From Candidatus Rokuibacteriota bacterium (GTDB lineage: Bacteria > Methylomirabilota > Methylomirabilia > Rokubacteriales > CSP1-6): a stretch of DNA of 64,000 nucleotides. The position numbers and the translations under genes are program-made. Under the pieces are notes generated by a model, which saw nothing but the letters and a program-made list of their open reading frames with translations, had not been told where the DNA came from and searched no databases. Location: contig VGLJ01000003.1 in NCBI GenBank assembly GCA_016866775.1, positions 62,001 through 126,000 on the forward strand. The letters are read 5' to 3'. Every line of letters starts with the position of its first letter. Position 1 is the first letter of the stretch. Below, one piece after another: positions 18,003-57,543 of this stretch.

Positions 18003-18008
18003 TAGAAT
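18003..18008 (+). promoter_or_regulatory. -10 hexamer of Nudix gene, leaderless spacing
   Basis: TAGAAT ending 7 bases before the GTG start of the Nudix hydrolase gene, with no ribosome-binding site between. No good -35 hexamer, because the hairpin of the previous gene occupies the position. Confidence 0.45.
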
Positions 18009-18015
18009 CGCCTTC

Positions 18016-41730: not shown

Positions 41731-42492
41731 ATGAACCTCCTACGCTCGCGCCTCGTGCAAGCCGCGCTGATCCTGATCGTCTCGTACCTGATCTTCCAGT
41801 TCGCGATCCGGCCGCCCGCGCCGTTCAGCGTGCTGTCGCTCTACATGGGCATCGTGCTGCTCGCGGTGCTCGTGTACGTGTCGTCGGACTCGGACTCGTG
41901 GCGCGCGTTCCTGCGCCCGATGCACGCGACGCTCGTGGACCCGGGAAAGCGCGCGCTGCGCCTGGCGCTGATGATCGTGATCCCGCTCCTGCTCGGCTAC
42001 TACGCGTACACGCAGGCCGCGGCCAAGCCCCAGGCGCCGCCCGAGCTCCGCGCGGTGCATCCGGCGCCGCCCGACACGATCCAGTTCCGCGGCAAGGACT
42101 TCAAGATCGCCGGCGGGGACAACCCGCTGCGCAAGGACGCGGCCGCGATCCCGAAGCACGTCGCGGCGGGCGGCGAGATCTACGTCCGCAACTGCATGTA
42201 CTGCCACGGCGACAACCTCGACGGCAAAGGCCACTTCGCGCACGGCTTCAACCCGCCGCCCGCGAACTTCCAGGACCCGGGCACGATCGCGATGCTGCAG
42301 GAGGCCTTCCTCTTCTGGCGCATCGCGAAGGGCGGACCCGGGCTGCCGAAGGAAGCAACGCCGTGGAACTCCGTCATGCCCGCATGGGAAGACCGGCTGA
42401 CGGAGGAGCAGATCTGGCAGGTCATCATGTATCTCTACGACGCGACCGGGCAGCAGCCACGCCGCTGGGAGACCGCGCATGGCGCGCACTAG
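41731..42492 (+). CDS. Membrane-bound monoheme cytochrome c
   Basis: 253 aa protein. Three hydrophobic helices (about 10-26, 35-51 and 77-95) precede a periplasmic cytochrome c domain with C155-MYC-H159 and a probable Met ligand in WNSVMPAWEDRLT. The layout recalls subunits that hand electrons to membrane oxidoreductases. It lies 4 bases after the diheme cytochrome gene. Its 3' end overlaps the proposed start of the next gene, next to a 120-base palindrome. Confidence 0.86.
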   Translation: MNLLRSRLVQAALILIVSYLIFQFAIRPPAPFSVLSLYMGIVLLAVLVYVSSDSDSWRAFLRPMHATLVDPGKRALRLALMIVIPLLLGYYAYTQAAAKPQAPPELRAVHPAPPDTIQFRGKDFKIAGGDNPLRKDAAAIPKHVAAGGEIYVRNCMYCHGDNLDGKGHFAHGFNPPPANFQDPGTIAMLQEAFLFWRIAKGGPGLPKEATPWNSVMPAWEDRLTEEQIWQVIMYLYDATGQQPRRWETAHGAH

Positions 42493-44110
42493 CGCGGGGC
42501 GCGCGACGAGAAGGGCCCATCTGCTTCGTTGCCTCCTCGGGCCACTCCCTGCGGCGTACTCGGAGTACGCCGCAGTCGGGCCCTCGTCGGCGCCTCGCAT
42601 CTGGACCCTTCTCGTCGCGCTATTTCGCGCACGTGTCGGACTGCATGCGCTCGGGGTATCGCTGATCATCGGCGTGGTCTTTGCGCCGTCGGAGGGCTCG
42701 GCGCAGGCGGGCGACGCCAACGCCGGGAAGGCCGTCTACGAGCGGAAGTGCGCGATGTGCCACGGGGTGAAGGGCGACGGCAAGGGCGCCGGCGCCGAGC
42801 TTCTTGATCCAAAGCCGCGCGACTTCACCTCGGGCGTCTACAAGATCCGCACGACAGCCAACAAGACGCCGTCCGACCAGGACCTGTTCCGGATCATCAC
42901 CGCCGGGATGCCCGGGACCTCGATGCCGCCGTGGGACGTTCTTCCAGAGAAGGAACGCTGGAATCTCGTGGCGTACATCAAGACGTTCGCGGCCGACAAG
43001 TTCAAGGAGGCGCCGAAGAAGCTCGAGCTGCCGAAGGAGGTCTCCTCCTCCGAGGCCTCGATCAAGCGCGGCAAGGAGATGTACGAGGCGATCGAGTGCC
43101 ACAAGTGCCACGGCAACCTGGGACGCGCGGACGGGCCCTCGCGGCCCGAGCTGAAGGACGACTGGGGCCATCCGATCGCGCCCGCGAACCTCACCAAGCG
43201 CTGGACGTTCCGCGGCGGCGCCTCGCGCACGGAGATCGCGACCCGCATCGCGAACGGCGTGCTCGGCACGCCGATGCCGTCGTTCATCGACAGCGTGGAG
43301 AAGCCCGAGGACGTCTGGCACCTGACCAACTACATCCTGTCGCTCGGGCCCGAGTCTCCGGCGTATGCGACGCTCGTGACCGTCAACGGCACTACGGACG
43401 CGATCCCGGACGATCCGAACGCGGAGTTCTGGAAGAAGGCCGCGCCCAACACCATTCCGCTGATGGGGCAGGTCATCGTCGACCCGCGCAACTTCAACCC
43501 CATCATCGACCTCGTGATCGTGCGCGGCGCGTACAACGACAAGGAGATCGCGTTCCACCTCACGTGGGACGATCCGAGCCAGACCACGGCCGAGGGGCGC
43601 GCGGACGCGCCCGGCGCGGCGAAGAAGATCGCGGCGGACGCGATCGCGCTGCAGTTCCCGAGCAAGATCGTGCCCGGCACGGAGCGGCCGTACTTCCTCA
43701 TGGGCGACGCGACCGACTCCGTCTACCTCCTGCGCTGGGAGGGCGGCAAGGCTGGCGAGGTCTCGGCGAGCGGCCCCACGAAGCTCAAGACGCTCGAAGG
43801 CGGCGAGGTCGTCTCGAAGACCGTCTACGAAAATGGTCAGTATCGCGTCGTGATCAAGCGGCCGCTCGCAGGCAAGGGTGAGGAGCGGCCGACGTTCCAG
43901 CCGTCCACGTTCGTGCCGGTCGCGTTCCAGGCGTGGGACGGCGGTGCGGGGGAGACCGGGACCCGGATGTCCCTGACATCGTGGTACTATCTGCGCCTGG
44001 AGCCACCGCAGTCCAACCGTCGTTTCGTCGTTCCTCCGGTCGTGGCGCTCCTGACGTTGGTGGCGATGCTGCTCGTGGTGCGCGCGGCCTCGCGCGGCCG
44101 CGGCAGGTGA
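42479..44110 (+). CDS. Diheme cytochrome c with ethylbenzene-dehydrogenase-type heme domain
   Basis: 543 aa. Two cytochrome c sites, C91-AMC-H95 and C207-HKC-H211, are followed by a domain at about 310-520 like the heme-b-binding gamma subunits of ethylbenzene/DMSO dehydrogenases (AFHLTWDDPSQT, DAIALQFPSK, YFLMGDATDSVYLLRWEGG). A C-terminal membrane helix lies at about 523-541. The only standard in-frame start is the ATG inside the previous gene, so residues 8-47 are encoded by a palindromic repeat, ahead of a normal-looking secretion signal ending SAQAG. It may link several hemes within the bd-like oxidase complex. Similar domains occur in nitrite oxidoreductase gamma subunits, but no molybdopterin partner is here. 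Confidence 0.8.
   Translation: MARTSAGRATRRAHLLRCLLGPLPAAYSEYAAVGPSSAPRIWTLLVALFRARVGLHALGVSLIIGVVFAPSEGSAQAGDANAGKAVYERKCAMCHGVKGDGKGAGAELLDPKPRDFTSGVYKIRTTANKTPSDQDLFRIITAGMPGTSMPPWDVLPEKERWNLVAYIKTFAADKFKEAPKKLELPKEVSSSEASIKRGKEMYEAIECHKCHGNLGRADGPSRPELKDDWGHPIAPANLTKRWTFRGGASRTEIATRIANGVLGTPMPSFIDSVEKPEDVWHLTNYILSLGPESPAYATLVTVNGTTDAIPDDPNAEFWKKAAPNTIPLMGQVIVDPRNFNPIIDLVIVRGAYNDKEIAFHLTWDDPSQTTAEGRADAPGAAKKIAADAIALQFPSKIVPGTERPYFLMGDATDSVYLLRWEGGKAGEVSASGPTKLKTLEGGEVVSKTVYENGQYRVVIKRPLAGKGEERPTFQPSTFVPVAFQAWDGGAGETGTRMSLTSWYYLRLEPPQSNRRFVVPPVVALLTLVAMLLVVRAASRGRGR
42501..42620. repeat. 120-base imperfect palindrome
   Basis: Outer arms GCGCGACGAGAAGGG (42501-42515) and CCCTTCTCGTCGCGC (42606-42620) are perfect complements. 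The centre is GCGGCGTACTC-GGAGTACGCCGC, and CTCGGGCC/GGGCCCTCG partially pair between them. It can form a large cruciform or RNA hairpin between two cytochrome genes. It is translated into the N-terminus of the downstream cytochrome (AAYSEYAAVG). Confidence 0.7.
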
Positions 44111-44137: not shown

Positions 44138-44839
44138 ATGATGCGCAAGGCTCTCGCAGGCTTCGCGGCGGTCGCGCTGATGGCCGGCACGGCGTGGGTC
44201 GCCGCTCCCCCGTTTGCCGACGCCCAGGGCGGCGGCACCGTCGAGGTCGAGGTCAAGTACAGCGGCGCGGCCGATGTCCAGACGCTCAAGGTGAACAAGG
44301 ACACCGAGCAGTGCGGCAAGGAAGCGAAGGTCGAGAACATCGTGGTGGGCGGCAACAAGGGGCTCGCCAACGCCGTCGCGTCGATCGCCGGCGCCAAGGG
44401 CCAGCCCACGGGGAAGAAGGCCGCGATCGACCAGAAGGGCTGCAAGTTCGTCCCGCACGTGATCGCGACGACGCCGGGCGAGGTCGACATCCTCAACTCG
44501 GACGGCATCCTCCACAACATCCACACCTATTCGACCGCGAATCCGTCCATCAACAAGGCGCAGCCGAAGTTCAAGAAGACGATGACGGAGAAGTTCGAGA
44601 AGCCGGAGTTCATCAAGGTCACCTGCGACGTGCACTCGTGGATGCTCGGCTGGATCGCCGTGATGCCGCACCCCTACTTCGGCGTGACCAACGAGAGCGG
44701 CGTCGCGAAGATCGAGAACGCGCCGGCGGGCAAGCAGACGGTGGAGGTGTGGCACGAGAAGCTCGGCAAGGTCACCAAGGACGTCGAGGTGAAGCCGGGC
44801 GCGACCACGAAGGTCACCGTCGAGATGGTGAAGAAGTAG
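44138..44839 (+). CDS. Periplasmic cupredoxin-like protein with carboxypeptidase-regulatory-like tail
   Basis: 233 aa secreted protein with a signal peptide ending near residue 30. A cupredoxin-like beta domain has candidate copper ligands His126 (GILHNIH), Cys163, His166 and Met169 (TCDVHSWM), the order of a type 1 site. A small beta domain (about 180-230, GVAKIENAPAGKQTVEVWH) resembles carboxypeptidase regulatory-like domains. AAGGAG-type ribosome-binding site upstream. It lies between the cytochromes and the aa3 oxidase, so it could shuttle electrons or copper. A paralogue is at 51501-52274. Confidence 0.8.
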   Translation: MMRKALAGFAAVALMAGTAWVAAPPFADAQGGGTVEVEVKYSGAADVQTLKVNKDTEQCGKEAKVENIVVGGNKGLANAVASIAGAKGQPTGKKAAIDQKGCKFVPHVIATTPGEVDILNSDGILHNIHTYSTANPSINKAQPKFKKTMTEKFEKPEFIKVTCDVHSWMLGWIAVMPHPYFGVTNESGVAKIENAPAGKQTVEVWHEKLGKVTKDVEVKPGATTKVTVEMVKK

Positions 44840-44863: not shown

Positions 44864-45562
44864 ATGCTCAACTGGTGGCTGCCCGAAAACGTCTCGAGCT
44901 TCGGCGGAGACATCGACTGGTTGTTCCACCTGATCTACGCGATCACCGCGATCACGGGGATCCTCGTGTTCGTGGCGATGGGCGCCTTCCTCGTGATGTA
45001 CCGCGACCGGCCCGGACGCCGGGCGCGGTACACGCACGGCAACACCACGCTCGAGATCGTGTGGACGATCGTGCCCGCGCTCATCCTCGTCGTGCTGACG
45101 TTCCTCAGCGTGCCGGCGTGGTCGAAGATCAAGATGTCGATGCCGCCCACGGACTTCGTGGTCGAGGTGAACGCCAAGCAGTTCAACTGGCAGGTCAGCT
45201 ATCCTGGCCCCGACGGCAAGTTCGGCACCGAGGACGACACGCTGTTCCTCGACGAGATGCACGTCCCCGTCAACAAGCCGATCCGCGTGGTCCTCAAGTC
45301 CCAGGACGTCATTCACAGCTTCTTCGTCCCGTCCTTCCGCATCAAGCAGGACGCCGTGCCGGGCCGTGCGATCCAGGCCTGGTTCGACGCCACCAAGCCC
45401 GGCAAGTATGAATGGCCGTGCGCGGAGCTCTGCGGCTTCGGCCACTCGGGCATGAAGGGCTGGGTCTACGTGCACACGCCCGCCGATTACGAGAAGTGGG
45501 CCGCCGAGAACCTCAAGGGAGGTGGCACGGCGCCCGCTCAGGAGGCGAAGCCCAAGTCATGA
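44864..45562 (+). CDS. coxB: Cytochrome c oxidase subunit II
   Basis: 232 aa CuA subunit of an aa3-type oxidase. Two membrane helices lie at about 20-44 and 65-85. CuA ligands are His151, Cys186, Cys190, His194 and Met197 (CAELCGFGHSGM). Unlike the ctaC product encoded at 13353-14303 it lacks a fused cytochrome c domain, so it needs a separate donor, which nearby cytochromes or cupredoxins may supply. Its stop overlaps the coxA ATG (ATGA). Confidence 0.95.
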   Translation: MLNWWLPENVSSFGGDIDWLFHLIYAITAITGILVFVAMGAFLVMYRDRPGRRARYTHGNTTLEIVWTIVPALILVVLTFLSVPAWSKIKMSMPPTDFVVEVNAKQFNWQVSYPGPDGKFGTEDDTLFLDEMHVPVNKPIRVVLKSQDVIHSFFVPSFRIKQDAVPGRAIQAWFDATKPGKYEWPCAELCGFGHSGMKGWVYVHTPADYEKWAAENLKGGGTAPAQEAKPKS

Positions 45563-47310
45563 GCGCGCACGCCGCGACCGCCCACGGTCACGCCACGCAC
45601 GAGCACCACGACCTGGGGTTCCTCAGGACGTACGTCTTCTCGACCGATCACAAGATGATCGCGAAGCAGTTCCTGTTCATGGGGCTCTTCATGTTCGTCA
45701 TCGGCGGGCTCCTCGCGCTGCTCGTCCGCTGGCAGCTCGCGTGGCCGGAGACCCCGGTCCCGGGCCTCGCCGGCATCCTCACGGAGACGGGCGGCGTGCT
45801 GGAGCCGTCGCAGTACAACATGGCGTTCACGATGCACGCCACCATCATGGTGTTCTTCGTGATCATGCCGATCCTCGCGGGCGCGTTCGGCAACTTCTGC
45901 ATCCCGCTGATGATCGGCGCCCGCGACATGGCGTTTCCCACGCTCAACATGCTCTCGTTCTGGACGACGTTCACGGCGGGCCTCGTCATGCTCGCCGGCT
46001 TCTTCGTGCCCGGCGGTCACGCGGCCGCGGGCTGGACGTCGTACGCGCCGCTGTCGTCGGTGGTGCAGTACACCGGCGTCAACTGGGGCCAGAACATCTG
46101 GTGCATCAGCCTGTTCACGATGGGTATCGGCTCCATGATGGGGTCGATCAACTACATCACCACCGTCATCAACATGCGCGCGCCGGGCATGAGCCTGTTC
46201 CGCATGCCGCTGGTGGTCTGGTCGCTCTTCATCACGGCCATCCTGCTGCTGCTCGCACTCCCCGTGCTCACGTCGGGCGTCGCGATGCTGCTCTTCGATC
46301 GCTGGCTCGGCACGAGCTGGTTCCTGCCGTCGGGTGGCGGCGAGCCGCTGCTCTGGCAGCACCTCTTCTGGTACTTCGGGCACCCCGAGGTCTACATCCT
46401 GATCCTGCCCGCCATGGGCATCGCCTCGGAGATCCTGCCGGTGTTCTCGCGCAAGCCGATCTTCGGCTACCACGCGATGGCGTTCTCGATGATCGCGATC
46501 GCGTTCCTCTCCTGGATCGTCTACGGTCACCACATGTTCGTGAGCGGCATGAACCCCGCGCTCGGCATGGCCTTCATGGTGACGACGATGATCATCGCCG
46601 TCCCCTCGGCCATCAAGACGTTCAACTGGCTCGGGACACTCTGGGGCGGCCGGATCCAGTTCACGGTGCCGATGCTGAACGCGCTCGCGTTCGTGTCGAT
46701 GTTCGTGATCGGCGGGCTCTCCGGCATCTTCATGGCCTCGACGCCGGTCGACATCTACATCCAGGACACGTACTTCATCGTCGCCCACATCCACTACGTG
46801 GTGTTCGGCGGCTCGATCTTCGGCGCGTTCGCCGCCATCTACTTCTGGTTCCCCAAGATGTTCGGGCGGCTGACGAACACCGCTCTCGGCCACCTCCACT
46901 TCTGGCCGAGCTTCGTCTTCTTCAACCTGACGTTCTTCCCCATGCACATCATCGGCGTGGGTGGCCAGATGCGGCGGATCTACAACCCGCTGCAGTACGA
47001 GTTCCTGCAGCACCAGCAGCACTGGAACGTCATCATCACGATCGGCGCGATCGGGCTCGGGATCTCGCAGATCCCGTTCATCGTCAACTTCTTCTGGTCG
47101 ATGGTCGCGGGGAAGCCGGCGCCCCTGAACCCCTGGAACTCGACCACGCTCGAGTGGACGGCCGCGTCGCCGCCGCCGCACCTGAACTGGGGCCCGACGC
47201 TGCCGACCGTGTACCGCGGCCCGTACGAGTACAGTGTCCCCGAGGAAAGCGCGGACTTCTCGCCGCAGACGCAGCCGCCGCGCGCCGTGGCGGGAGCTCG
47301 CCGCCACTGA
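45559..47310 (+). CDS. coxA: Cytochrome c oxidase subunit I
   Basis: 583 aa catalytic subunit of an A-type heme-copper oxidase. It shows STDHKMIAKQ, GHPEVYILILP with the Glu of the D pathway and the crosslinked His-Tyr, YGHHMFVSGMNP for CuB, and VAHIHYVVFGG for the two hemes. Not fused to subunit III, in contrast to the caa3 operon in this window. It is coupled to coxB. Confidence 0.96.
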   Translation: MSAHAATAHGHATHEHHDLGFLRTYVFSTDHKMIAKQFLFMGLFMFVIGGLLALLVRWQLAWPETPVPGLAGILTETGGVLEPSQYNMAFTMHATIMVFFVIMPILAGAFGNFCIPLMIGARDMAFPTLNMLSFWTTFTAGLVMLAGFFVPGGHAAAGWTSYAPLSSVVQYTGVNWGQNIWCISLFTMGIGSMMGSINYITTVINMRAPGMSLFRMPLVVWSLFITAILLLLALPVLTSGVAMLLFDRWLGTSWFLPSGGGEPLLWQHLFWYFGHPEVYILILPAMGIASEILPVFSRKPIFGYHAMAFSMIAIAFLSWIVYGHHMFVSGMNPALGMAFMVTTMIIAVPSAIKTFNWLGTLWGGRIQFTVPMLNALAFVSMFVIGGLSGIFMASTPVDIYIQDTYFIVAHIHYVVFGGSIFGAFAAIYFWFPKMFGRLTNTALGHLHFWPSFVFFNLTFFPMHIIGVGGQMRRIYNPLQYEFLQHQQHWNVIITIGAIGLGISQIPFIVNFFWSMVAGKPAPLNPWNSTTLEWTAASPPPHLNWGPTLPTVYRGPYEYSVPEESADFSPQTQPPRAVAGARRH

Positions 47311-47320
47311 CGGACGCTCC

Positions 47321-48226
47321 GTGGCGCATCGCCTCGCTCTCGCCACTGTCGCCGCGACGTTCGTCCTGATCCTCTTCGGAGGGCTGGTGACGAACACCGG
47401 CGCGGCGCTGGCCGTCCCGGACTGGCCGACGACCTTCGGCTACACGATGTTCTTCTATCCGTGGTCGCGGATGGTCGGCGGGATCTTCTACGAGCACAGC
47501 CACCGGCTGCTCGGCTCGCTCGTCGGGCTCCTGACGATCGCGCTCGCCGTCGCGCTCTGGCGCAAGGGCGGACGCCTGCGCGCGCTCGGTCTCGTGATGG
47601 TCGTCGCCGTCGTCACCCAGGGCATCCTGGGCGGGCTCAGGGTGGTGCTGCTGAAGGAGACGCTCGCGATCGTCCACGGCTGTCTCGCGCAGGCGTTCTT
47701 CGCGCTCGCCGTCGTGGCGGTCCTGCTCACCTCCGTCTCGCATCGGCTGCCCGTGCAGGGCTTCGATGGAGCGCTCCGCCGCCTCACCGTCGCGGCGGCG
47801 GTGCTCGTGTACGCGCAGATCGTGCTGGGCGCGCTGCTCACCCACGCGGGGTGGATCGTGCCCCACCTGATCGGCGCCGCGGCGGTGTTCGTGTTCGTCC
47901 CGCTCGTGACCGCGCGCCTGCGCCGCACGCGCGACGCGATCGCGGCGCCGGTCGGGAGCGCGCTCGTCCTGCTGCTCGGCCTGCAGCTCCTGCTCGGCGC
48001 CGGCAGCTTCGTCTCGCGCTTCATGTCCGTGTGGATTCCGGGCGGCCAGGCCACGATGCTCGTCCTGCCGGTGACGCATCGGCTCGTGGCGAGCCTGATT
48101 CTCGCCGGCGCGGTCGTCGGCGCCGTGCGTGCGCTCAGCGCGGGGCAGTCATACCGGCCCGCCTCCGGCGGGACGCCGACGCACGTCATGCGGACGCAGC
48201 CGTCGCTCCGGCTGGTGCGCGGATGA
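47321..48226 (+). CDS. ctaA: Heme A synthase (CtaA/COX15)
   Basis: About 301 aa multi-helix protein that oxidises the C8 methyl of heme O to give heme A. It has FGGLVTNTGAALAVPDWP, the conserved YEHSHRLLGSLVG and a second His in PVTHRLVASLILAG. The GTG at 47321 was chosen, 10 bases after coxA; longer starts would add an Arg-rich segment read from within coxA. Its stop overlaps ctaB by 4 bases. Confidence 0.9.
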   Translation: MAHRLALATVAATFVLILFGGLVTNTGAALAVPDWPTTFGYTMFFYPWSRMVGGIFYEHSHRLLGSLVGLLTIALAVALWRKGGRLRALGLVMVVAVVTQGILGGLRVVLLKETLAIVHGCLAQAFFALAVVAVLLTSVSHRLPVQGFDGALRRLTVAAAVLVYAQIVLGALLTHAGWIVPHLIGAAAVFVFVPLVTARLRRTRDAIAAPVGSALVLLLGLQLLLGAGSFVSRFMSVWIPGGQATMLVLPVTHRLVASLILAGAVVGAVRALSAGQSYRPASGGTPTHVMRTQPSLRLVRG

Positions 48227-49119
48227 CGCAGGAGCTGATCGTCGCGCCGCTCGTGCGGGACCGCCGCCGGTTCCTCGCGGACCTCGTGGTGCTGACGAAG
48301 CCGCGCGTGGTGCTGATGGTCCTCGTCACCACGCTCGTCGGGTACTACGTCGCGCTCTCGGGCCCCGCGGACTGGGCGCGCGTCCTCCATCTCGTCGTGG
48401 GGACGCTGCTCGCCGCCGGCGGCACGCTCGCGCTGAATCAGTACCGCGAGCGGGAGATCGACGGGCTGATGGAGCGCACGCGCCTCAGGCCGCTGCCGGA
48501 CGGCCGCGTGATGCCGCTCGAGGCGCTGCTCTTCGGCGCGATCATCACCGTGGTCGGCCTCGTGTACCTGGCGGCGACGGTCAACGTGCTCTCCGCGCTC
48601 GTCACGGCGGCGATCGTCGTGTTGTACCTCTTCGTGTACACGCCGCTCAAGGTGCGCACGCCCCTCGCCACGCTGATCGGCGCGATCCCGGGCGCGCTGC
48701 CTCCGGTCACCGGGTGGGTCGCCGCGCGCGACGACGTCGGGGTCGGCGCCGCCGTGCTGTTCGGCATCCTCTTCCTGTGGCAGCTGCCGCACACGCTCGC
48801 GATCGCGCGGCTCTACCGCGACGACTACGCGCGCGCAGGCGTGCTGGTCTTGCCGGTCGTCGACGAGCAGGGCGGCAGCACCGAGCGCCAGATGATGACG
48901 GGCGTGGTGGGGCTGCTCGTCGTGAGCCTGCTGCCGACGCTCATCGGGCTCGCCGGCGGCGTGTACTTCGCCGGGGCGCTCCTCCTCGGCGTGGCGTTCA
49001 CCGCCGCGAGCGCGGTCCAGGCGCGGGCGCGCACGAGCGCGGCCGCGCGCTGGGTGCTCTTCGCGTCGCTCCTCTACCTGCCGGTCCTGCTGGCGCTGCT
49101 GGCCTTCGACAAGGCATGA
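48223..49119 (+). CDS. ctaB: Protoheme IX farnesyltransferase (heme O synthase)
   Basis: 298 aa UbiA-family prenyltransferase that farnesylates heme B to heme O, the substrate of CtaA. Family motifs are LTKPRVVLMVL, NQYREREIDGLMERTRLRPLP (the Asp-rich prenyl diphosphate site) and YTPLKVRTPLATLIGAIPGALPP. About eight to nine helices. ATG overlaps the ctaA stop, and its own stop overlaps the next small gene. Confidence 0.95.
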   Translation: MTQELIVAPLVRDRRRFLADLVVLTKPRVVLMVLVTTLVGYYVALSGPADWARVLHLVVGTLLAAGGTLALNQYREREIDGLMERTRLRPLPDGRVMPLEALLFGAIITVVGLVYLAATVNVLSALVTAAIVVLYLFVYTPLKVRTPLATLIGAIPGALPPVTGWVAARDDVGVGAAVLFGILFLWQLPHTLAIARLYRDDYARAGVLVLPVVDEQGGSTERQMMTGVVGLLVVSLLPTLIGLAGGVYFAGALLLGVAFTAASAVQARARTSAAARWVLFASLLYLPVLLALLAFDKA

Positions 49120-49238
49120 GCGACGAGGGAGCGACCGCGGTGGACCTGCACGACCGGAACCGGCGCGTGCTCCGCGTGATCCTCGCGGTGATGGGCACGC
49201 TCATCGTCGCGTCCTTCCTGGTGGGGATCCGCTGGTGA
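49116..49238 (+). CDS. Tiny membrane protein of the aa3 operon
   Basis: 40 aa protein with a charged N-terminus (DRNRRVLR) and a single helix (VILAVMGTLIVASFLVGI). The gene is coupled at both ends: its ATG overlaps the ctaB stop and its stop overlaps the coxC start (GTGA). Such placement argues for a real gene, probably a small structural or assembly subunit of the oxidase. No family recognised. Confidence 0.65.
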   Translation: MSDEGATAVDLHDRNRRVLRVILAVMGTLIVASFLVGIRW

Positions 49239-49909
49239 GCGGGATCGGCGCGGTTCTCGATCCGCCACGCCCCGTCACCCGGCGCACGAACGGCCGCGTG
49301 CCGCCGCCTCCGCCGCCGACGGGCGGGGGAGACGGCGACGACCGCGACCGCGAGCCCCGGCCGCGCGGGCTCGACAACGCGCGGCTCGCCACGATGTTCT
49401 TCATCGGCGCCGAGGTGATGTTCTTCTCGGGGCTGATCTCCGCGTACTTCGTCCTGCGGATGGGCGCGGCGCAGTGGCCGCCGCCGCTCCAGCCGCGGCT
49501 GCCCATCCTGGTGACCGGCCTCAACACCCTCGTGCTGCTCGGCTCGAGCGTCGCGATGGTGCGCGCGCTGCGCGCGCGCGGCGATCACGTGCGCCTCGTC
49601 CGCGGCCTCGCGCTCACCGGCGCGCTCGGGGTCGTCTTCCTGCTCGTGCAGGGATACGAGTGGGCGCGGCTCGTGAGCTACGGGTTCACGGTGACGTCCG
49701 GCGCGTACGGCGTCACGTTCTACACGCTGATCGGCGTGCACGGGCTGCACGTCCTCGGCGCGCTGGCGTGGCTCGCGATCGTCTTGCTGGGCGCGCGGCG
49801 CGGCCGGTTCATCGAGCCGCCCGCCACGGGCCTCCGCGCCTGCGGCATGTACTGGCACTTCGTCGTCGCGCTGTGGCCGATCCTCTACGTGACGGTGTAC
49901 CTGCTGTGA
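49235..49909 (+). CDS. coxC: Cytochrome c oxidase subunit III, first copy
   Basis: 224 aa membrane protein of the heme-copper oxidase subunit III family. After a Pro/Gly/Asp-rich hydrophilic N-terminus (about 1-45) come five helices with FFIGAEVMFFSGLISAYFVLR, TFYTLIGVHGLHVLGAL and CGMYWHFVVALWPILYVTVYL. GTG start coupled to the 40-aa gene. A second subunit III gene follows at 50193. Confidence 0.9.
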   Translation: MSGIGAVLDPPRPVTRRTNGRVPPPPPPTGGGDGDDRDREPRPRGLDNARLATMFFIGAEVMFFSGLISAYFVLRMGAAQWPPPLQPRLPILVTGLNTLVLLGSSVAMVRALRARGDHVRLVRGLALTGALGVVFLLVQGYEWARLVSYGFTVTSGAYGVTFYTLIGVHGLHVLGALAWLAIVLLGARRGRFIEPPATGLRACGMYWHFVVALWPILYVTVYLL

Positions 49910-50196
49910 TCCGCGCCGCGACCCTGGCCTGCGCGACCTGCATCGCGTCACCGTTCGGTGATCGCACGTACAACTGGCCCTATCTCATGCTGATCCTGCT
50001 GCCGTTCGTGGTGGCGGCCGTGATCGGCGGCGTCCTCGCGCACGTGAACGGCGTGATCCCTAGATTGGGGGGCTCCGGGCGCGCCTTTGAACATGGGGCC
50101 CCGCAACCGGAGGACCCCAAACCCCTCAGTCCCCCGCTCCGGGCCCGGAGTGAATCCGGGCCCTCCGCGCCTGAACGGCACAAGGAGACGACATGA
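49906..50196 (+). CDS. Small membrane protein extended by a repeat
   Basis: 96 aa in the open frame. The N-terminal half has C-A-T-C and one clear helix (YLMLILLPFVVAAVIGGVLAHV). From about residue 52 the coding sequence runs through the mosaic repeat at 50086-50163 and becomes Pro/Arg-rich and low in complexity. The gene is coupled on both sides (GTGA with coxC, ATGA with the second subunit III), so reading frame is kept through the repeat. Probably an oxidase accessory protein; no family recognised. Confidence 0.55.
   Translation: MIRAATLACATCIASPFGDRTYNWPYLMLILLPFVVAAVIGGVLAHVNGVIPRLGGSGRAFEHGAPQPEDPKPLSPPLRARSESGPSAPERHKETT
50086..50163 (-). repeat. Mosaic interspersed repeat, parts A and B
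   Basis: Reverse orientation. Part A is a perfect hairpin GGGCCCGGA/TCCGGGCCC (50141-50163), shared with 61756-61778 together with flanking GAGCG and a G-run. Part B (50086-50127) matches 22471-22512 nearly base for base. The element is read through by the small membrane protein gene. Confidence 0.65.
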
Positions 50197-50810
50197 GCGC
50201 TGCGACCCACGCGACTCACGCGGTCGAGCCCGCGGAGACACCCCTCACCCCCGAAAGCTGGGGCAAGCTCGGCATGTGGATCTTCCTGGCCGGCGACGCC
50301 GTCGGCTTCGGGACGCTGCTCGCCGGCTACGGCATCATGCGCGCGTCCAGCGCCGACTGGCCGGATCCCTACGCGGCCCTCGGGATCAACCTCACCGCGC
50401 TGATGACGTTCCTCCTGATCTGCTCGAGCGTGACGATGGTCAAGGCGCTCGAGTGGCTCGGCAAGGGCGACAAGCGCCGGGCGATCAACTACCTGCTCTT
50501 CACGGCCCTCGGCGGCACGATCTTCGTCTCGCTCCAGGCGTACGAGTGGACGCACCTGATCCATCGCGGTCTGCTCATCAACGGCAACCCGTGGGGCGCG
50601 GCGCTCTTCGGGACCTCGTTCTTCCTCGTCACCGGCTTCCACGGCCTGCACGTCACCGGCGGCGTGATCTACCTCCTGTCGATGGTCCGCTGGATCCTGA
50701 ACCGGCCCGATCCCGCCGCCAGCTACAACGCGGTCGAGATCGCGGGGCTGTACTGGCACTTCGTCGACCTCGTCTGGATCATGGTCTTCACCTTCATGTA
50801 CCTCCTGTAG
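50193..50810 (+). CDS. Cytochrome c oxidase subunit III, second copy
   Basis: 205 aa subunit III family protein with five helices. It has KLGMWIFLAGDAVGFGTLLAGY, FFLVTGFHGLHVTGGVIYL and GLYWHFVDLVWIMVFTFMYLL. It is only distantly like the copy 300 bases upstream and closer in style to the subunit III portion of the caa3 fusion in this window. Both copies in one operon might be used together, or one might serve another oxidase or nitric-oxide-reductase-type complex. Confidence 0.88.
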   Translation: MSAATHATHAVEPAETPLTPESWGKLGMWIFLAGDAVGFGTLLAGYGIMRASSADWPDPYAALGINLTALMTFLLICSSVTMVKALEWLGKGDKRRAINYLLFTALGGTIFVSLQAYEWTHLIHRGLLINGNPWGAALFGTSFFLVTGFHGLHVTGGVIYLLSMVRWILNRPDPAASYNAVEIAGLYWHFVDLVWIMVFTFMYLL

Positions 50811-50818
50811 GAGGCGCG

Positions 50819-51151
50819 ATGGCGACTGTGGCGCACAAGCATCCCAACTACATGGCCATCTTCTGGTGGCTCACGGCGCTCACCATCCTCGAGCTCGCCG
50901 TCGTCTTCCTGCCGTTCGGCAAGACGGTGAACGGCACGCTCCTGTGCGCGCTGGCGATCGGCAAGGCGGCGCTCGTGGCCGCGTACTTCATGCATCTGAG
51001 GTTCGAGTATCGGTCGCTCACGCTGATCGCCTTCACGCCGCTCGCGATCGCCGTGCTGCTGATCTTCGTCCTCATGCCCGACAGCTTCGCCGTGCAGAAG
51101 AAGACCGCGGGCGTCAAGGCGCCGGCGGCGTCGGCACCGGCGAAACACTGA
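50819..51151 (+). CDS. Cytochrome c oxidase subunit IV
   Basis: 110 aa three-helix protein of the prokaryotic cytochrome oxidase subunit IV family, with HPNYMAIFWWLTALTILE and AYFMHLRFEYRSLTLI. ATG follows a GGAGG-like site 9 bases after the second subunit III gene. The C-terminal 20 residues are Ala/Lys-rich. Confidence 0.88.
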   Translation: MATVAHKHPNYMAIFWWLTALTILELAVVFLPFGKTVNGTLLCALAIGKAALVAAYFMHLRFEYRSLTLIAFTPLAIAVLLIFVLMPDSFAVQKKTAGVKAPAASAPAKH

Positions 51152-51157: not shown

Positions 51158-51499
51158 GTGCGCCTGCTCTCCGTCCTGCGCCGGGCCTTGACGCTCCGGT
51201 GCCCGCGCTGCGGCGGGAGCCGGCTCTTCACCGGCTGGGTCGCCATGGCCAGGGCCTGCGCGCTCTGCGGGCTCCGCTACGAGCGGGCGCAGGGCTACTG
51301 GGTCGGTGCGATCTACGTGAACTACGGCGTGACGACCGTCATCGCGCTGCTCGGGTTCTTCCTCACGTGGCCGCGGTGGTCGATGCGCGCCGAGCTGGTC
51401 GTCTGGGGCACGTTCGTGGTGGTCTTTCCCGTGTGGTTCTTCCGGTACAGCCGGAGTCTCTGGCTGGCCGTCGAGACGTTGGTGAATCCCGAGCTGTGA
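51158..51499 (+). CDS. DUF983-family membrane protein
   Basis: 113 aa protein with an N-terminal zinc-ribbon-like pair (C-P-R-C and C-A-L-C), then ERAQGYWVGAIYVNYG and two helices, matching the DUF983 family. Such genes often sit beside cytochrome oxidase clusters but have no firm function. GTG start; a second GTG lies 4 bases earlier out of frame. It ends the aa3 oxidase gene run. Confidence 0.82.
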   Translation: MRLLSVLRRALTLRCPRCGGSRLFTGWVAMARACALCGLRYERAQGYWVGAIYVNYGVTTVIALLGFFLTWPRWSMRAELVVWGTFVVVFPVWFFRYSRSLWLAVETLVNPEL

Positions 51500-51500: not shown

Positions 51501-52274
51501 GTGTTGCCGGTGACGTCCGTCCCGCGGCCGATCGTGCTGGTGATGATGGTGCTGAGCATGTGGTCCGCGCCCGCGTCCGCCGCGTACGAGGAGGTCGCCG
51601 TGAAGGACGGCGGCACGGTGAGCGGCCTCGTCCGGTTCACCGGCACGCCGCCGAAGCTCGAGCCGATCGCGGTCAACAAGAACCGCGACGTGTGCGGCGA
51701 GCAGAAGCCGTCCGAGGCGCTGATCGTCGGCGGCGACCGGGGCGTGAAGGGCTCGGTGATCCTGCTCGAAGGCGTCACGAAGGGCAAGAAGGGCGCGGGC
51801 GACGTCATCGTCGACAACGCGAAGTGCCTCTTCATCGGCCACGTCACCGCCGTCGGTCCGGGTGACCGCGTGCGGATCAAGAACTCGGACCCGATCCTCC
51901 ACAACACGCACGGCAAGCTCGGCAAGCCGACCGTGTTCAACCTCGCGCTCCCGAACAAGGAGCAGATGGTCGACATCACCAAGCGGCTGGCCAAGCCCGG
52001 CGTGGTGCGCGTGCTCTGCGACGCGCACCCGCACATGATGGCGTGGATGATCGTCCACGACAGCCCGTACTACGCGGTCACCGACGAGCGCGGCGCGTTC
52101 AAGATCGACGGCGTGCCGCCCGGCACGTACAAGGTCACCATGTGGCACGAGGGCTTCCGCGCCAGGGGCGTGGACAAGGACGGCCGGCCCGCGTACGAGG
52201 ATCCGGTCACGCTCACGAAGGAAGTCACCGTCGCGCCGAAGGGCGCCGCGACGATCGAATTCGAGCTCAAATAG
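51501..52274 (+). CDS. Second periplasmic cupredoxin-like protein
   Basis: 257 aa secreted paralogue of the 44138-44839 product. A signal peptide ends near residue 28 (MWSAPASA). Candidate copper ligands are His134 (PILHNTHG), Cys173, His176 or His178, and Met179 or Met180 (LCDAHPHMM). The C-terminal domain (about 187-255) again resembles a carboxypeptidase regulatory-like fold (GAFKIDGVPPGTYKVTMWHEG). A GTG 9 bases further in is an alternative start. The two paralogues bracket the aa3 operon. Confidence 0.8.
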   Translation: MLPVTSVPRPIVLVMMVLSMWSAPASAAYEEVAVKDGGTVSGLVRFTGTPPKLEPIAVNKNRDVCGEQKPSEALIVGGDRGVKGSVILLEGVTKGKKGAGDVIVDNAKCLFIGHVTAVGPGDRVRIKNSDPILHNTHGKLGKPTVFNLALPNKEQMVDITKRLAKPGVVRVLCDAHPHMMAWMIVHDSPYYAVTDERGAFKIDGVPPGTYKVTMWHEGFRARGVDKDGRPAYEDPVTLTKEVTVAPKGAATIEFELK

Positions 52275-52294: not shown

Positions 52295-54199
52295 ATGTAC
52301 AAGCACATCTACGTCCCGGTCGACAACTCCGACTTCTCGAACCGGGCCATCGACCTGGCCGTCGAGCTCGGGAAGGCGTTCGGAGCGGCGCTGACCGGAA
52401 TCCACGTCTACGCCGCCCGTCTGCACGACTATCGCTTCAAGCAGATGGAGTACACGCTCCCCGAGGAATACAAGGACGAGAACGAGCTCGAGCGGCAGCG
52501 CAAGATCCACGACTCGCTGATCGCGATGGGGCTGCAGCTCATCTCCGATTCCTACCTCGACGTCATGGGCCAGAAGGCGGAGGCGGCCGGCCTCGCGTTC
52601 GAGCGCAAGATGATCGACGGCAAGCACTACAAGGTCCTGATCGAGGACACGCAGGCCTCGGACTACGACCTCGTGGTGATGGGCGCGCTCGGCATGGGCG
52701 CCGTGAAGGACAGCCAGCTCGGCTCGGTGACCGAGCGCTACGTGCGCCACGTCGACCGCGACACGCTCGTCGTCCGTAACGCCGACGCGCTCAAGGATCA
52801 GCAAGGCGCGATCGTCGTGTGCATCGACGGCTCGCCGCAGTCGTTCCACGGCCTCAAGATCGGCATCGCGCTCGCGAAGGCGACGGGGCGGCCGGTGCAG
52901 GCGATCGGCGTGTACGACCCGTACCTCCACTACGCGATGTTCAACGGCATCGTCGGCGTGCTCAACGAGAAGGCCTCGAAGATCTTCCGGTTCAAGGAGC
53001 AGGAGCAGCTGCACGAGGAGATCATCGACACCGGGCTGGCGAAGATCTACCAGTCGCATCTGGAGATCGGGCGCAAGCTCGCGGCCGACGACGGCGTCGA
53101 TCTGTCCATCACCCTTCTCGACGGGAAGTGCTTCGAGAAGATCCTCACGTTCGCGCGCAAGGAGCAGCCGTGGCTGCTCATCCTGGGCCGCGTGGGCGTG
53201 CACTCCGACGAGCACGAGACCGACCTCGGCTCCAACACCGAGAACCTCCTGCGCCTCGCGCCGTGCAACGTCCTCCTGACGGGCGGGAAGTTCTATCCGC
53301 CGCTCGACGTGAAGGCCGAGGAGATCATCTCGTGGACGGAGGAAGCCGAGGCGCGCATGGAGCGCGTGCCGCCGCAGGTGAAGGGCGTGGCCCGCACCGC
53401 GCTGCTGCGCTACGCCATCGAGCAGGGCCACACGGTGATCACCAACAAGGTGATCGACGAGGCGATGGCGATCTTCATGCCCACGCGCATGGCGGAGAAG
53501 ATGCAGATCATGGCCGAGGACCTCGCGGTCGCGAAGCTCCGCGCCGAGAACCAGACCGCGACGGCGATCTGCTCGATCTGCGGCTACACGGTCAAGGGCC
53601 CGAACCCCGTCGTGACGTGCCCGGTCTGCAAGGCCGACGCGGGCAAGTTCCAGGTGATCTCGCGCGACGTCGTCGAAGCGATCGCGACCCAGGAGGGCGG
53701 CATCGAGGAGGAAGAGTCGATGCCGGGCGTGCAGGTGAAGTGGTCGGCCGACGCGCGCGACGCCCTGCGCGAGGTGACCGACGCCTACCTGCGCCGGCGC
53801 GCGAAGGCCCGGATCGAGAAGTACGCGCGCTCGAAGAAGATCGCGGTCATCACGTGCCAGCTCGCGCTGCCGATGATCGAGGAGACGGTCGGCCGCGAGA
53901 AGCTCGGCGCCGGCTGGGACACGCTGCTCGCGAAGACGAAGTTCGAGCCCGCGCAGGCGCCGGCGGGCGAGACCGCGCCCGCGTCACCGTTCACGTGGAC
54001 GGACGACGCCACGGCGCGTCTGAACCGCGTGCCCGCGGGGTTCATGCGCGACATGACGCGCGAGGAAGTCGAGAAGGTCGCGACCGGCAAGGGCGTGACG
54101 ACGATCGACCTCGCGGTCTGCGAAGAGGGCATCGGCCACGCGCGCGAGACGATGAACGAGGTCATCGCGGGGTATGTCTCGCAGAAGAAGCCCCGCTGA
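52295..54199 (+). CDS. Universal-stress-protein/PCP_red/zinc-ribbon fusion
   Basis: 634 aa cytoplasmic multidomain protein. Two UspA-like domains come first (about 1-162 and 171-332), with nucleotide-loop glycines in GALGMGAVKDSQLGS and GRVGVHSDEHETDLGS. Three copies of a short domain like the C-terminal PCP_red domain of protochlorophyllide reductase subunit B follow (about 346-395, 482-531, 566-622; each starts with a W-[ST]-x-[DE]-A pattern). Between the first two is a zinc ribbon (C426-SIC-C429, C442-PVC-C445). No enzyme motif is seen. The gene ends the aa3 cluster just before a hairpin terminator. It may sense nucleotide or redox state; function unknown. Confidence 0.82.
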   Translation: MYKHIYVPVDNSDFSNRAIDLAVELGKAFGAALTGIHVYAARLHDYRFKQMEYTLPEEYKDENELERQRKIHDSLIAMGLQLISDSYLDVMGQKAEAAGLAFERKMIDGKHYKVLIEDTQASDYDLVVMGALGMGAVKDSQLGSVTERYVRHVDRDTLVVRNADALKDQQGAIVVCIDGSPQSFHGLKIGIALAKATGRPVQAIGVYDPYLHYAMFNGIVGVLNEKASKIFRFKEQEQLHEEIIDTGLAKIYQSHLEIGRKLAADDGVDLSITLLDGKCFEKILTFARKEQPWLLILGRVGVHSDEHETDLGSNTENLLRLAPCNVLLTGGKFYPPLDVKAEEIISWTEEAEARMERVPPQVKGVARTALLRYAIEQGHTVITNKVIDEAMAIFMPTRMAEKMQIMAEDLAVAKLRAENQTATAICSICGYTVKGPNPVVTCPVCKADAGKFQVISRDVVEAIATQEGGIEEEESMPGVQVKWSADARDALREVTDAYLRRRAKARIEKYARSKKIAVITCQLALPMIEETVGREKLGAGWDTLLAKTKFEPAQAPAGETAPASPFTWTDDATARLNRVPAGFMRDMTREEVEKVATGKGVTTIDLAVCEEGIGHARETMNEVIAGYVSQKKPR

Positions 54200-54285: not shown

Positions 54286-54880
54286 ATGTACGTTGTGGGG
54301 AACCAGGTGATCCGCGCGGCGCTCGCGATGCTGGCCGTCCTGCTCACCGCCGGCTGCACGACGGCGTCCGGCCACGCTCGACGAGGTCGTGAGCGACGCC
54401 TTGGCCGCGGCGGCCCATCTCCGGACCCGTCCGAACGTCGATCCCGCGCGCATCGGCGTGCTGGGGTTCTCGTGGGGCGCGAGCGCGGCGCTGCGCACGT
54501 CGAGCGCTGGGTATCGGCGCGGCGTGCCGGGCGGCGGGTTCCGCGCGGCGGCCGCGTACGATCCGCTGTGCATGAGCGGGCGCGGTGACCTCCCGCGCGA
54601 CGCGCAGGAGCGCTCGACGAACCTTCTCCCGGACATCGAAGTGCCGACGCTGATCCTCATGGGCGCCGACGACGTGGATACTCCCAGCGTGGCGCAGAAT
54701 TGCTCGATCGCTGTCGGCGTCGCGCGACGCGCCGGACAGCCCGTGGCGATCGAGCTCTACCCAGGTGCCGGGCACGTGTTCGACATGGGCCCGTCGCGGC
54801 CTCCGCAAGCGGCGGCGAAGGCGATGAACGACCTGCTCGCGTTCTTCTCGCGGCACCTCGGCAAGGGAGGCGGAGCGTGA
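54286..54880 (+). pseudogene. Dienelactone-hydrolase-like lipoprotein, internally deleted
   Basis: The 5' end encodes a good lipoprotein signal (ALAMLAVLLTAGC) and the 3' part (54371-54880) encodes, in another frame, the second half of a dienelactone hydrolase: GVLGFSWGAS nucleophile elbow, GADDVDTP acid and GAGHVFD histidine. The join near 54370 lacks the first hundred or so residues of the hydrolase and shifts the frame. A shorter product from a GTG at 54389 could be made but would lack the N-terminal half of the fold. The 3' end overlaps the radical SAM gene by 4 bases. Confidence 0.72.
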
Positions 54881-56247
54881 GCGCGCCGTCGCCGTACACG
54901 GCGTACTCGGTCTCGTGGAACCTCACGCAGCGCTGCAACCTCGAGTGCGCGCATTGCTACATGTCCGCGTTCGCCGGGGCCGACACGCGCGGTGAGCTCA
55001 CCACCGATGAGTGCCGGCGGGTGATCGACGAGATCGCGGCCGTCAATCCCAGCGTCTTCCTGATCCTCACCGGCGGCGAGCCGCTGCTCAGGAAGGACAT
55101 CTGGGACATCGCGGGCTACGCGGCCGAGCGGCGCTTCACCACCGTGTTCGGGACCAACGGCGTGCTGCTCCGCGAGCGCGAGGCGAAGCTGATGCGCGAG
55201 CGCGGCGTGCTCGGCGCGTCGATCAGCCTCGACTCGACGGATCCGAGGAAGCACGACGCCTTCCGGCACCTGCCCAGCGCGTGGGACGGCGCCGTGCGCG
55301 CGACGCGCGTCCTCAACGACGCGGGCCTCGACTTCTCGCTGCACATGTCGGTGACCGACTGGAACGTCGGCGAGGTCCCCGCGATGGTCGACCTCGCGAA
55401 GGAACTCGGGGCGAAGGTGCTGAACTTCTTCTTCCTCGTGCGGACCGGGCGGGGGCGCGACCTGACGGACATCGACGCCGCCGCGTACGAGCGGATCCTC
55501 ACGTGGCTCGCGAAGGCGCAGGGCGTCGGCCCGGGGCCACCGAGCTTCGTCCAGCGGCTGCTCGGCCGCGCGCCCGCGGCGGAGCCGTCGGCCTTCGAAG
55601 ACCCGTGGTCGACGCCCGTCGGCCGCGCCGACGGCCTGCTGATCCGCGCGAAGTGCGCGCCGCACTTCCGCCGGATCATCTGGGAGCTCAATCCCGATTC
55701 GCCGCTGCTGAAGAACTACGCGCACGGGTCGTGCCCCGCCGGGAAGTATTACTGCCGCATCACGCCCGAGGGCGACGTCACGCCGTGCCCGTACATGCCG
55801 GTCTCGGCCGGGAACCTGCGCGCGACGAGCTTCGGTGACCTCTGGCGCTCGGCGCCGGTCTTCGACGACCTGCGTGAGCCGAAGCTCGGCGGCCGATGCG
55901 GCGCGTGCGAGTTCTCGAAAGCCTGCGGCGGCTGCCGGTGCCGCGCGTACGCGACGTACGGCGACTACCTCGCCGAGGATCCCGCGTGCGGCTATCAGCC
56001 GGGCGCGCACGGAGGCGCCGTCATCGACCTGCCGGCGACGATGACGTTCGGCCTCCCGGTCAGCGAGGAGCTCACGTGGGAGCCTGCCGCGCGCGAGCGG
56101 CTCTCGGCGATCCCGTCGTTCGCGCGGGGGATGGTCGTGAAGGCCGTCGAAGCCTACGCGCGCGGGCGCGGCCAGACGGTCGTCACGCCCGCGCTGCTCG
56201 CCGAGGTCCGCAACACGTGGGGCGCGAGGTTCCGCCCGCGTGAGTGA
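54877..56247 (+). CDS. Radical SAM/SPASM enzyme with C-terminal PCP_red domain
   Basis: 456 aa. The radical SAM cluster motif is C20-x3-C24-x2-C27 (CNLECAHC), followed by LTGGEPLLRKD and SISLDS. A Cys-rich SPASM-like region holds further Fe-S ligands (SCPAGKYYC, TPCPYMP, GRCGACEFSKACGGCRC). The overall order resembles heme-modifying enzymes such as NirJ (heme d1) and AhbD (alternative heme synthesis). The last 60 residues are a PCP_red domain (EELTWEPAARERLSAIP), the same small domain found three times in the protein encoded at 52295. A role in heme or cofactor maturation for the neighbouring oxidases is inference. Confidence 0.82.
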   Translation: MSAPSPYTAYSVSWNLTQRCNLECAHCYMSAFAGADTRGELTTDECRRVIDEIAAVNPSVFLILTGGEPLLRKDIWDIAGYAAERRFTTVFGTNGVLLREREAKLMRERGVLGASISLDSTDPRKHDAFRHLPSAWDGAVRATRVLNDAGLDFSLHMSVTDWNVGEVPAMVDLAKELGAKVLNFFFLVRTGRGRDLTDIDAAAYERILTWLAKAQGVGPGPPSFVQRLLGRAPAAEPSAFEDPWSTPVGRADGLLIRAKCAPHFRRIIWELNPDSPLLKNYAHGSCPAGKYYCRITPEGDVTPCPYMPVSAGNLRATSFGDLWRSAPVFDDLREPKLGGRCGACEFSKACGGCRCRAYATYGDYLAEDPACGYQPGAHGGAVIDLPATMTFGLPVSEELTWEPAARERLSAIPSFARGMVVKAVEAYARGRGQTVVTPALLAEVRNTWGARFRPRE

Positions 56248-56686
56248 CCGCCGCTACCGCGTCGCCGCCTGCGTGTACCTGGTCTACGGCGTCGTGTACT
56301 GGCTCGGCGGCATGTGGCTCCTGTCCCAGGGTGTCGGCGTGATGGGCGGCAGGGGCGGCGACGGAACGACGGCGAGCCTGGTGCGCTGGGGACTCATCGG
56401 CGCCATCCCGCTGCTCGCCATCCCGCTCCTCTTGTCGCGTCGCTGGTCCTGGCTCGGCGGCATCGTGTCCCGGCGGACGTTCGCCGCGCTGGTCGCGCTG
56501 CTCCTCGCGTTCCGCGCGTGGAAGGTCGGGGGCGTCGCGCTGCACGGCGGCGGCGCGTCGGTCGCGGCACCGTGGGGCGGATCGATGAGCTTCCAGGCCG
56601 GGGCCGCGATCTTCCTGGTCGTGACGCTTCTCGCGCTCCTCGCCGTCGCGCGCGCGGCGTTCACACCCGAGCGGGCGAGCGCGTGA
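56240..56686 (+). CDS. Four-helix membrane protein, unknown function
   Basis: 148 aa with about four hydrophobic helices (CVYLVYGVVYWLGGMWLL, LVRWGLIGAIPLLAIPLLL, FAALVALLLAFRAWKVGGV, and a final FQAGAAIFLVVTLLALLAV). It overlaps the radical SAM gene by 8 bases and the Mrp-type ATPase gene by 4 bases (GTGA), so the three form a tightly coupled unit. No family recognised. Confidence 0.65.
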   Translation: MSDRRYRVAACVYLVYGVVYWLGGMWLLSQGVGVMGGRGGDGTTASLVRWGLIGAIPLLAIPLLLSRRWSWLGGIVSRRTFAALVALLLAFRAWKVGGVALHGGGASVAAPWGGSMSFQAGAAIFLVVTLLALLAVARAAFTPERASA

Positions 56687-57543
56687 AACGCTATCGCGAC
56701 ATCGCCGGCGACGGCGGCTCGAACATCGTCGGCCAGGTGCAGGCGCAGCAGGCCCGCCTGCGCGAGCGGCTCGCCGGCGTGCGGTCGATCGTGGCGGTCG
56801 TCTCCGGCAAGGGCGGGGTCGGGAAGTCGTCGATCACCGCGAATCTCGCCGGCGCCTGCGCGCTCGACGGCGCGCGCGTGGGGGTCCTCGACGCCGACCT
56901 GAACGGCCCGAGCATGGCCAAGATGCTCGGCGTGCGCGGGGGCAAGCTGGTCGTGCGCGACGGCGCCGTCGAGCCGCCGCGGAGCGCGCTGGGCGTCAAG
57001 GTCATGTCGATGGACCTGCTGCTGCCGTCCGACGCCGCGCCGCTCACGTGGGAGGCGCCGACGCAGGACGAAGCGCACACGTGGCGCGGAACCATGGAGG
57101 CGAACGCGCTCCGAGAGTTCCTCGCCGACACGGCGTGGGGCGATCTCGACCTCCTGCTGCTCGATCTCCCCCCGGGCACGGACCGTCTGCTCACCGTCGC
57201 GTCGCTCGTGCCCGTCCTCTCGGGAACCGTCGTGGTCACGATCCCGTCGGACGTCTCGCAGCTCGTGGTGCGCCGGTCGCTGACGGTGGCGCGGGAGAGC
57301 CGCGCGCCGGTCCTGGGCCTCGTGGAGAACATGGCGGGCCTGTTCCCGGGCCCGGACGCCGAGGTGCTGGCGAGGGATGCCGGCGTGCCGTTCCTGGGCC
57401 GTGTGGCGTTCGACGCAGACCTCGCGCGCGCCGCCGACGCGGGCGAGGCTTTCGTGGCGACCTTCCCCGACCGCGAGGCCGCGCGTTCTCTCCGCGCGAT
57501 CGCGTCGTCGCTCCGCGCCGCGCTCGCAGCCCCCGCCGGCTAA
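56683..57543 (+). CDS. Mrp/NBP35-type P-loop ATPase (Fe-S carrier)
   Basis: 286 aa ATPase of the Mrp/ApbC/MinD superfamily. The deviant Walker A is GKGGVGKSS (42-50), followed by DADLNGPSM and LLLDLPPGTDRL. Members carry and transfer Fe-S clusters. The CxxC pair typical of many Mrp proteins is not obvious near the C-terminus, where ENMAGLFPG replaces the usual ENM.Y.xC region. GTG start. Downstream of a Cys-rich radical SAM gene, it may load that enzyme. Confidence 0.85.
   Translation: MKRYRDIAGDGGSNIVGQVQAQQARLRERLAGVRSIVAVVSGKGGVGKSSITANLAGACALDGARVGVLDADLNGPSMAKMLGVRGGKLVVRDGAVEPPRSALGVKVMSMDLLLPSDAAPLTWEAPTQDEAHTWRGTMEANALREFLADTAWGDLDLLLLDLPPGTDRLLTVASLVPVLSGTVVVTIPSDVSQLVVRRSLTVARESRAPVLGLVENMAGLFPGPDAEVLARDAGVPFLGRVAFDADLARAADAGEAFVATFPDREAARSLRAIASSLRAALAAPAG

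Follow-up and report, generated by a model that had tools for sequence, protein, structure and literature searches.

The PCP_red domain (PF08369) is known almost only from chlorophyll synthesis, where it forms the C-terminus of BchB/ChlB, the protochlorophyllide reductase (DPOR) subunit whose partner is the NifH-like BchL. The family is listed among the most prevalent phototrophy-linked Pfams in a 2026 study (PMC12815261), and a 2025 survey of archaeal Usp proteins (PMC12159084) mentions a Usp fused to LI-POR_suB-like_C in Methanomicrobiaceae, which it calls an unusual automatic annotation. A further point of reference is provided by the NXR clusters of Nitrospina, Nitrospira and Kuenenia, which contain NxrC, cytochromes c, cupredoxin-like proteins, a putative zinc finger protein and a bd-like oxidase, an enigmatic gene set for which an alternative-complex-III-like role was suggested (PMC3578206).

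The protein described here, which we term UspPCP, is encoded by a 634-aa open reading frame without internal stops in a 64-kb stretch of DNA from a Candidatus Rokuibacteriota genome (the whole stretch being the window hereafter); its start codon lies 20 bp past the preceding gene and a ribosome-binding site, GGAGG, is present (Table 1). An initial annotation, made from the sequence, had described this protein as a fusion of two Usp and three PCP_red domains, and the Pfam profile search bore this out, returning two stretches of Usp (PF00582; E 1.5e-39, 136.2 bits against a cut-off of 24) and, in the C-terminal part, three of PCP_red (E 1.5e-27, 95.8 bits against a cut-off of 32.5). The zinc ribbon that it had placed between PCP_red copies 1 and 2 was found in that position with all four cysteines, but its generic zinc type was not: residues 426-452 match RUBY_RBDX (E 2e-8, 34 bits against a cut-off of 26.5), which points to a rubredoxin-like ribbon and possibly an Fe site.

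The solved structures nearest in sequence to UspPCP are those of tandem Usps and of the C-terminal part of protochlorophyllide reductase subunit B. The nitrogenase-like body of BchB was not found in the protein: the NCBIfam BchB models scored 60 bits against cut-offs near 500 and aligned over their last ~50 positions alone, so that UspPCP has the PCP_red domain without the rest of BchB, and its membership in the BchB family was rejected. A six-frame PCP_red scan of the window's genome likewise gave no BchB-like PCP_red frame, on which ground we rejected a remnant of photosynthesis as the origin of the gene; the earlier statement that photosynthesis genes are absent holds in so far as the genome has no such frame.

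UspPCP, preceded by a gene for cytochrome c/EB_dh and by a full cox cluster, had been taken for the end of this oxidase operon. It is not the last gene of the cluster, since it is followed by genes for a radical SAM enzyme that itself carries PCP_red (rSAM-PCP, a second PCP_red gene that the initial annotation had missed), a membrane protein and an Mrp/NBP35-type ATPase (Mrp). A gene for a Zn-ribbon+PCP_red protein (ZnR-PCP) is found on another contig of the same genome. Two side observations concern the window itself. The one oxidase cluster holds two different COX3-family genes (49235-50810), both of which are kept in relatives, and an alpha/beta-hydrolase-like coding stretch with a GFSWGAS-type motif, recognized by eye, lies between the UspPCP and radical SAM genes (54286-54880), where the ORF tested gave no Pfam match.

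Table 1. Features of the UspPCP gene neighbourhood, with positions counted from the first nucleotide of the window.
Feature	Position	Strand	Basis
Diheme cytochrome c with EB_dh heme-binding domain; first gene of upstream oxidase cluster	42479..44110	+	
Exported protein, CarboxypepD_reg-like end, cupredoxin-like by eye	44138..44839	+	also syntenic in relatives
Oxidase genes CoxB, CoxA, CtaB/UbiA, two COX3-family subunits	44864..50810	+	
Small membrane protein, COX4-like by eye	50819..51151	+	reading frame
Small membrane protein with Cys pairs, DUF983-like by eye	51158..51499	+	synteny
Exported protein with CarboxypepD_reg domain, immediately 5' of UspPCP	51501..52274	+	synteny
UspPCP, Usp-Usp-PCP_red-ribbon-PCP_red-PCP_red, 634 aa	52295..54199	+	ORF, Pfam, conserved family
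Usp domain 1, residues 1-161, motif G2xG9xG(S/T) at 130-144	52295..52777	+	Pfam; motif in 42/43 relatives
Usp domain 2, ~residues 171-331, glycine motif at 298-313	52805..53287	+	Pfam; motif in 40/43 relatives
PCP_red copy 1	53333..53464	+	Pfam; six-frame scan 44.5 bits
Rubredoxin-like four-Cys ribbon (C426, C429, C442, C445)	53570..53650	+	RUBY_RBDX E 2e-8; Cys 43/43
PCP_red copy 2 (weakest)	53741..53860	+	six-frame scan 30.3 bits, slightly below the cut-off of 32.5 alone
PCP_red copy 3	53996..54127	+	six-frame scan 45.5 bits
Radical SAM/SPASM enzyme, C-terminal PCP_red domain at 56077-56211	54877..56247	+	
Small hydrophobic (membrane) protein, 8-nt overlap with radical SAM gene	56240..56686	+	syntenic in relatives
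Mrp/NBP35-type P-loop ATPase (ParA/NUBPL family), 4-nt overlap with membrane gene, without ENM..CxxC pair	56683..57543	+	

The AF2 model of UspPCP (mean pLDDT 76.6, pTM 0.57) contains confident Usp domains and three helical triplets at the PCP_red sites, connected by linkers of low confidence, so the relative placement of the domains is not readable from it. Foldseek aligned the model with the tandem ATP-binding Usps 3ab8 (TMt 0.82) and 3cis (0.67-0.74), a whole-protein result that is dominated by the Usp half and says nothing on the PCP_red copies. As for these, the predicted helices at residues 349-356, 360-377 and 384-394, and their equivalents, agree with the three-helix fold of the solved PCP_red domain 2KRU; direct superposition was confined to ZnR-PCP, whose modelled PCP_red domain fits 2KRU with an rmsd of 1.0 A and BchB of DPOR (2YNM) with 1.2 A. 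A histone-like resemblance of PCP_red appeared in weak Foldseek matches only (E 0.4 or worse).

Across 40 related genomes, full-length UspPCP was found in most genera of its family, at 82-90% identity, and identity was 57-62% in genomes of the same class that are more distant. Scanning named genomes yielded 414 stretches encoding relatives, and our family survey rests on the best 80 of these, which come (by the taxon names in the record titles) from Rokubacteria/Methylomirabilota, Acidobacteria, Rhodothermales, Chloroflexi, Entotheonella, Planctomycetota, Deltaproteobacteria and others. All four cysteines of the ribbon are invariant in an alignment of 43 sequences (43/43), which rules out a chance fusion. 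In the same alignment the ATP motif G2xG9xG(S/T) is kept in 42 of the 43 sequences in Usp1 and, allowing one extra residue, in 40 of them in Usp2, and the two domains are predicted to bind ATP or ADP; they also have family-specific motifs, MHDYRFKQMEYTLPEEY...RKIHDSLI and FRFKEQEQLHEEIIDTGLAKIYQSHLE. UspPCP is a conserved family in many non-photosynthetic bacteria, not an accident of one genome.

Several relatives have a different layout. Three from Chloroflexi (L132, L140 and L141) are longer, at about 840 aa, and the L141 copy has five PCP_red domains according to Pfam. The ribbon cysteines are missing from relative L055, and at locus L054 the three PCP_red domains and the Usp domain are split into separate ORFs: standalone three-PCP_red proteins are encoded there at 5335-6228 and 16792-18535, one of them directly before a Usp gene, like a split UspPCP.

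A lack of PCP_red matches in the C-terminal segments, or a random genomic context in homologues, would have told against the initial annotation; both went the other way, partner genes being conserved at the relatives' loci. Among Rokubacteria, the order UspPCP, radical SAM, membrane protein, Mrp is fixed wherever the contig is long enough. For other lineages, we scored genes within 10 kb of UspPCP at the 25 loci flanked by over 8 kb on either side, using a simple ORF caller and BLAST clustering to define neighbours. Cytochrome c/EB_dh was present at 21 of the 25 loci, Mrp at 20, ZnR-PCP (about 160 aa) at 19, a bd-like membrane protein with cytochrome c at 18, radical SAM+PCP_red at 16 and cox genes at 12; therefore, the PCP_red proteins, Mrp and cytochrome c/EB_dh are the constant partners and the oxidase type varies. 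At three loci (L124, L129 and L130) the bd-like and cytochrome genes next to UspPCP come after a gene for an ActB-like Fe-S protein, suggesting a hybrid with alternative complex III.

The association extends to genomes in which the genes are scattered, as those with UspPCP usually hold all three kinds of PCP_red protein. In the 40 relatives, UspPCP and ZnR-PCP were both present in 24, one only in six and neither in ten (p 7e-5, Fisher test, which ignores kinship), and a 60-genome sample of another phylum contained all three PCP_red proteins in three genomes, a lone PCP_red in one and none in 56; frame length, rather than a second profile, decided which partner type a frame was assigned to in these whole-genome scans. 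For UspPCP, Mrp and rSAM-PCP, pairwise distances correlate (r 0.85-0.95), a correlation for which shared descent alone could suffice. The three PCP_red proteins thus form a trio inherited largely together, beside cytochrome c/EB_dh and bd-like or cox genes, though not a strictly obligatory one, as some genomes have ZnR-PCP without UspPCP. Judging from these scans, PF08369 is not specific to phototrophy: it is common in genomes that lack a BchB-like PCP_red protein.

The partner proteins offer further indications. The best models for rSAM-PCP are NirJ2 (302-340 bits) and the heme b synthase AhbD (299-304 bits), both below cut-offs of 500, while for the Rhodothermales copy peptide-modifying radical SAM models score far lower (about 160 bits or less). 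CX3CX2C is kept in all 49 copies of rSAM-PCP and CX2CX5CX20C in 48; the latter is the second motif reported for AhbD (PMC3942049), but it is near the general SPASM pattern and therefore weakly diagnostic for NirJ2/AhbD. ZnR-PCP has four invariant cysteines and an invariant CPF motif, which may recall heme regulatory motifs. In two genomes (G006 and G020) ZnR-PCP occurs without a Usp fusion, directly after a cNMP-binding-type ORF (L059:9336-10195 and L060:466-1331). The window's Mrp has the ATPase domain, and Mrp matches the Fe-S carriers MrpORP/ApbC. The C-terminal CxxC of Mrp/NBP35 Fe-S carriers was not found in this copy: the ENM..CxxC pair is gone in nearly all Rokubacteria copies and kept in nearly all others, which weakens an Fe-S carrier role in the Rokubacteria.

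Two candidate products were rejected. Canonical ferrochelatase was present in each of the 23 genomes examined for it; the module is thus dispensable for ordinary heme, and a replacement of ordinary heme synthesis was dismissed. A strong Cytochrom_D1 match was obtained in only one of the 23, with weak partial matches in the others; heme d1 for cd1 nitrite reductase was accordingly discarded for most genomes and is not the module's general product.

The conserved neighbourhood of UspPCP hints at a module, so far undescribed, that matures or assembles heme or iron-sulfur proteins or cofactors. Starting from what was observed, namely the domains present, the kept motifs, the shared synteny and the joint inheritance, we tentatively read UspPCP as the scaffold subunit of a PCP_red maturation/assembly module for the adjoining heme-rich respiratory complexes, and put the probability of this reading at roughly 0.4. 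The tandem Usp half would bind ATP (or ADP) and thereby set the conformation of UspPCP or its affinity for partners, the rubredoxin-type ribbon and the three PCP_red domains would hold partners or cofactor, and rSAM-PCP (heme-type) and ZnR-PCP (Zn-ribbon/CPF), with one PCP_red each, would serve the same client together with the Mrp/NBP35-type ATPase. This client would be the heme-rich respiratory complex encoded alongside, comprising cytochrome c with EB_dh and oxidase subunits of the bd-like or A type. What we infer for the module is thus the binding of ATP, the docking of partners and a tetrapyrrole or Fe-S cargo. Points against it are the change of oxidase partner between lineages, the general presence of ferrochelatase, the rarity of cd1 nitrite reductase, the CxxC loss from Mrp in nearly all Rokubacteria and the genomes that have ZnR-PCP but no UspPCP.

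The main rival to the maturation scaffold holds that PCP_red docks ATPases of the NifH/BchL/Mrp type and that the module does no more than supply the respiratory complexes with Fe-S clusters, handling no tetrapyrroles. Mrp is indeed the commonest partner without PCP_red after cytochrome c/EB_dh (20/25 loci) and matches the Fe-S carriers MrpORP/ApbC, the classical PCP_red protein BchB works with the NifH-like BchL, and several loci encode an ActB-like Fe-S protein. We nevertheless consider this account rather unlikely, given that the top-scoring relatives of the radical SAM enzyme are heme-biosynthesis enzymes and that Mrp in Rokubacteria lost its CxxC while the rest was kept; moreover, we know of no report of BchL docking on the C-terminal domain of BchB.

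The initial annotation had proposed that the protein could sense redox state or nucleotides and dock on enzymes of respiration or heme maturation. Docking fits the conserved neighbourhood; for sensing, the Usp domains and the ribbon are the only positive evidence. In its full form, in which Usp senses ATP or stress, the ribbon senses redox state and the PCP_red arms gate respiratory enzymes, the proposal seems doubtful to us: no output or DNA-binding domain was found in UspPCP, it is constantly accompanied by an enzyme and an ATPase and not by signalling proteins, and its association survives a change of oxidase type, even if the intact ATP motifs of the tandem Usp, the invariant four-Cys ribbon and the position of ZnR-PCP after a cNMP-binding-type ORF in two genomes would all suit a sensor. 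That UspPCP merely shares its expression with respiratory genes and serves in the general stress response, unconnected with them, is very improbable, for although Usp proteins are frequently encoded near metabolic operons without a direct mechanistic link, PCP_red is common to three different proteins, two of them neighbours, which are present together even where their genes are not adjacent, the window's own genome being an example.

A bolder version of the scaffold reading, which we regard as a long shot, is that PCP_red serves non-phototrophs generally as a tetrapyrrole-handling domain and that the module makes or inserts an undiscovered modified heme, with UspPCP as an ATP-gated scaffold. 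If true, this heme would serve the bd-like and cytochrome c/EB_dh respiratory complexes, and the PCP_red of chlorophyll synthesis would be one use of an older heme-handling domain. The trio provides a second, respiratory setting for PCP_red across many non-phototrophic lineages and, with Mrp, a concrete and testable set of four co-inherited genes; in practical terms, PF08369 flags many genomes in which the proteins with PCP_red are something other than BchB.

Compared with described systems, UspPCP shares with the tandem Usps TTHA0350 (3ab8) and Rv2623 (3cis) two Usp domains and both glycine ATP motifs, and 3ab8, which was solved with ATP, aligns with its predicted model at a TMt of 0.82. It differs from them by about 300 extra residues (the ribbon and three PCP_red copies), by long extra helices in each Usp domain and by its own motifs, MHDYRF.QME and FKEQEQLHEEIIDTGLAKIY. 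With BchB/ChlB of DPOR it has the C-terminal PCP_red in common, the same domain by profile in UspPCP and by fold in ZnR-PCP, whereas the nitrogenase-like body is missing, PCP_red is present in three copies and the host genome has no BchB-like frame. Since a fusion of Usp with PCP_red was already noted in archaea (PMC12159084), the fusion as such is not new; where that survey treats the Methanomicrobiaceae proteins, they are given as annotation alone, with no ribbon, three-copy layout, operon or partners described. In the searchable literature we found no description of the ribbon/three-copy form, of a PCP_red radical SAM enzyme or of the module.

Among radical SAM enzymes, rSAM-PCP is like NirJ/NirJ2/AhbC/AhbD, scoring best with NirJ2 and AhbD and having CX3CX2C and CX2CX5CX20C in common with them; unlike these two, it remains below both curated cut-offs and has an added C-terminal PCP_red domain. 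Further differences are that ferrochelatase is present in its genomes and cd1 nitrite reductase mostly absent. Finally, although no NXR catalytic subunits were recognized at the UspPCP loci examined, these loci resemble the NXR clusters in combining a bd-like protein with cytochromes, cupredoxin-like and zinc-finger proteins.
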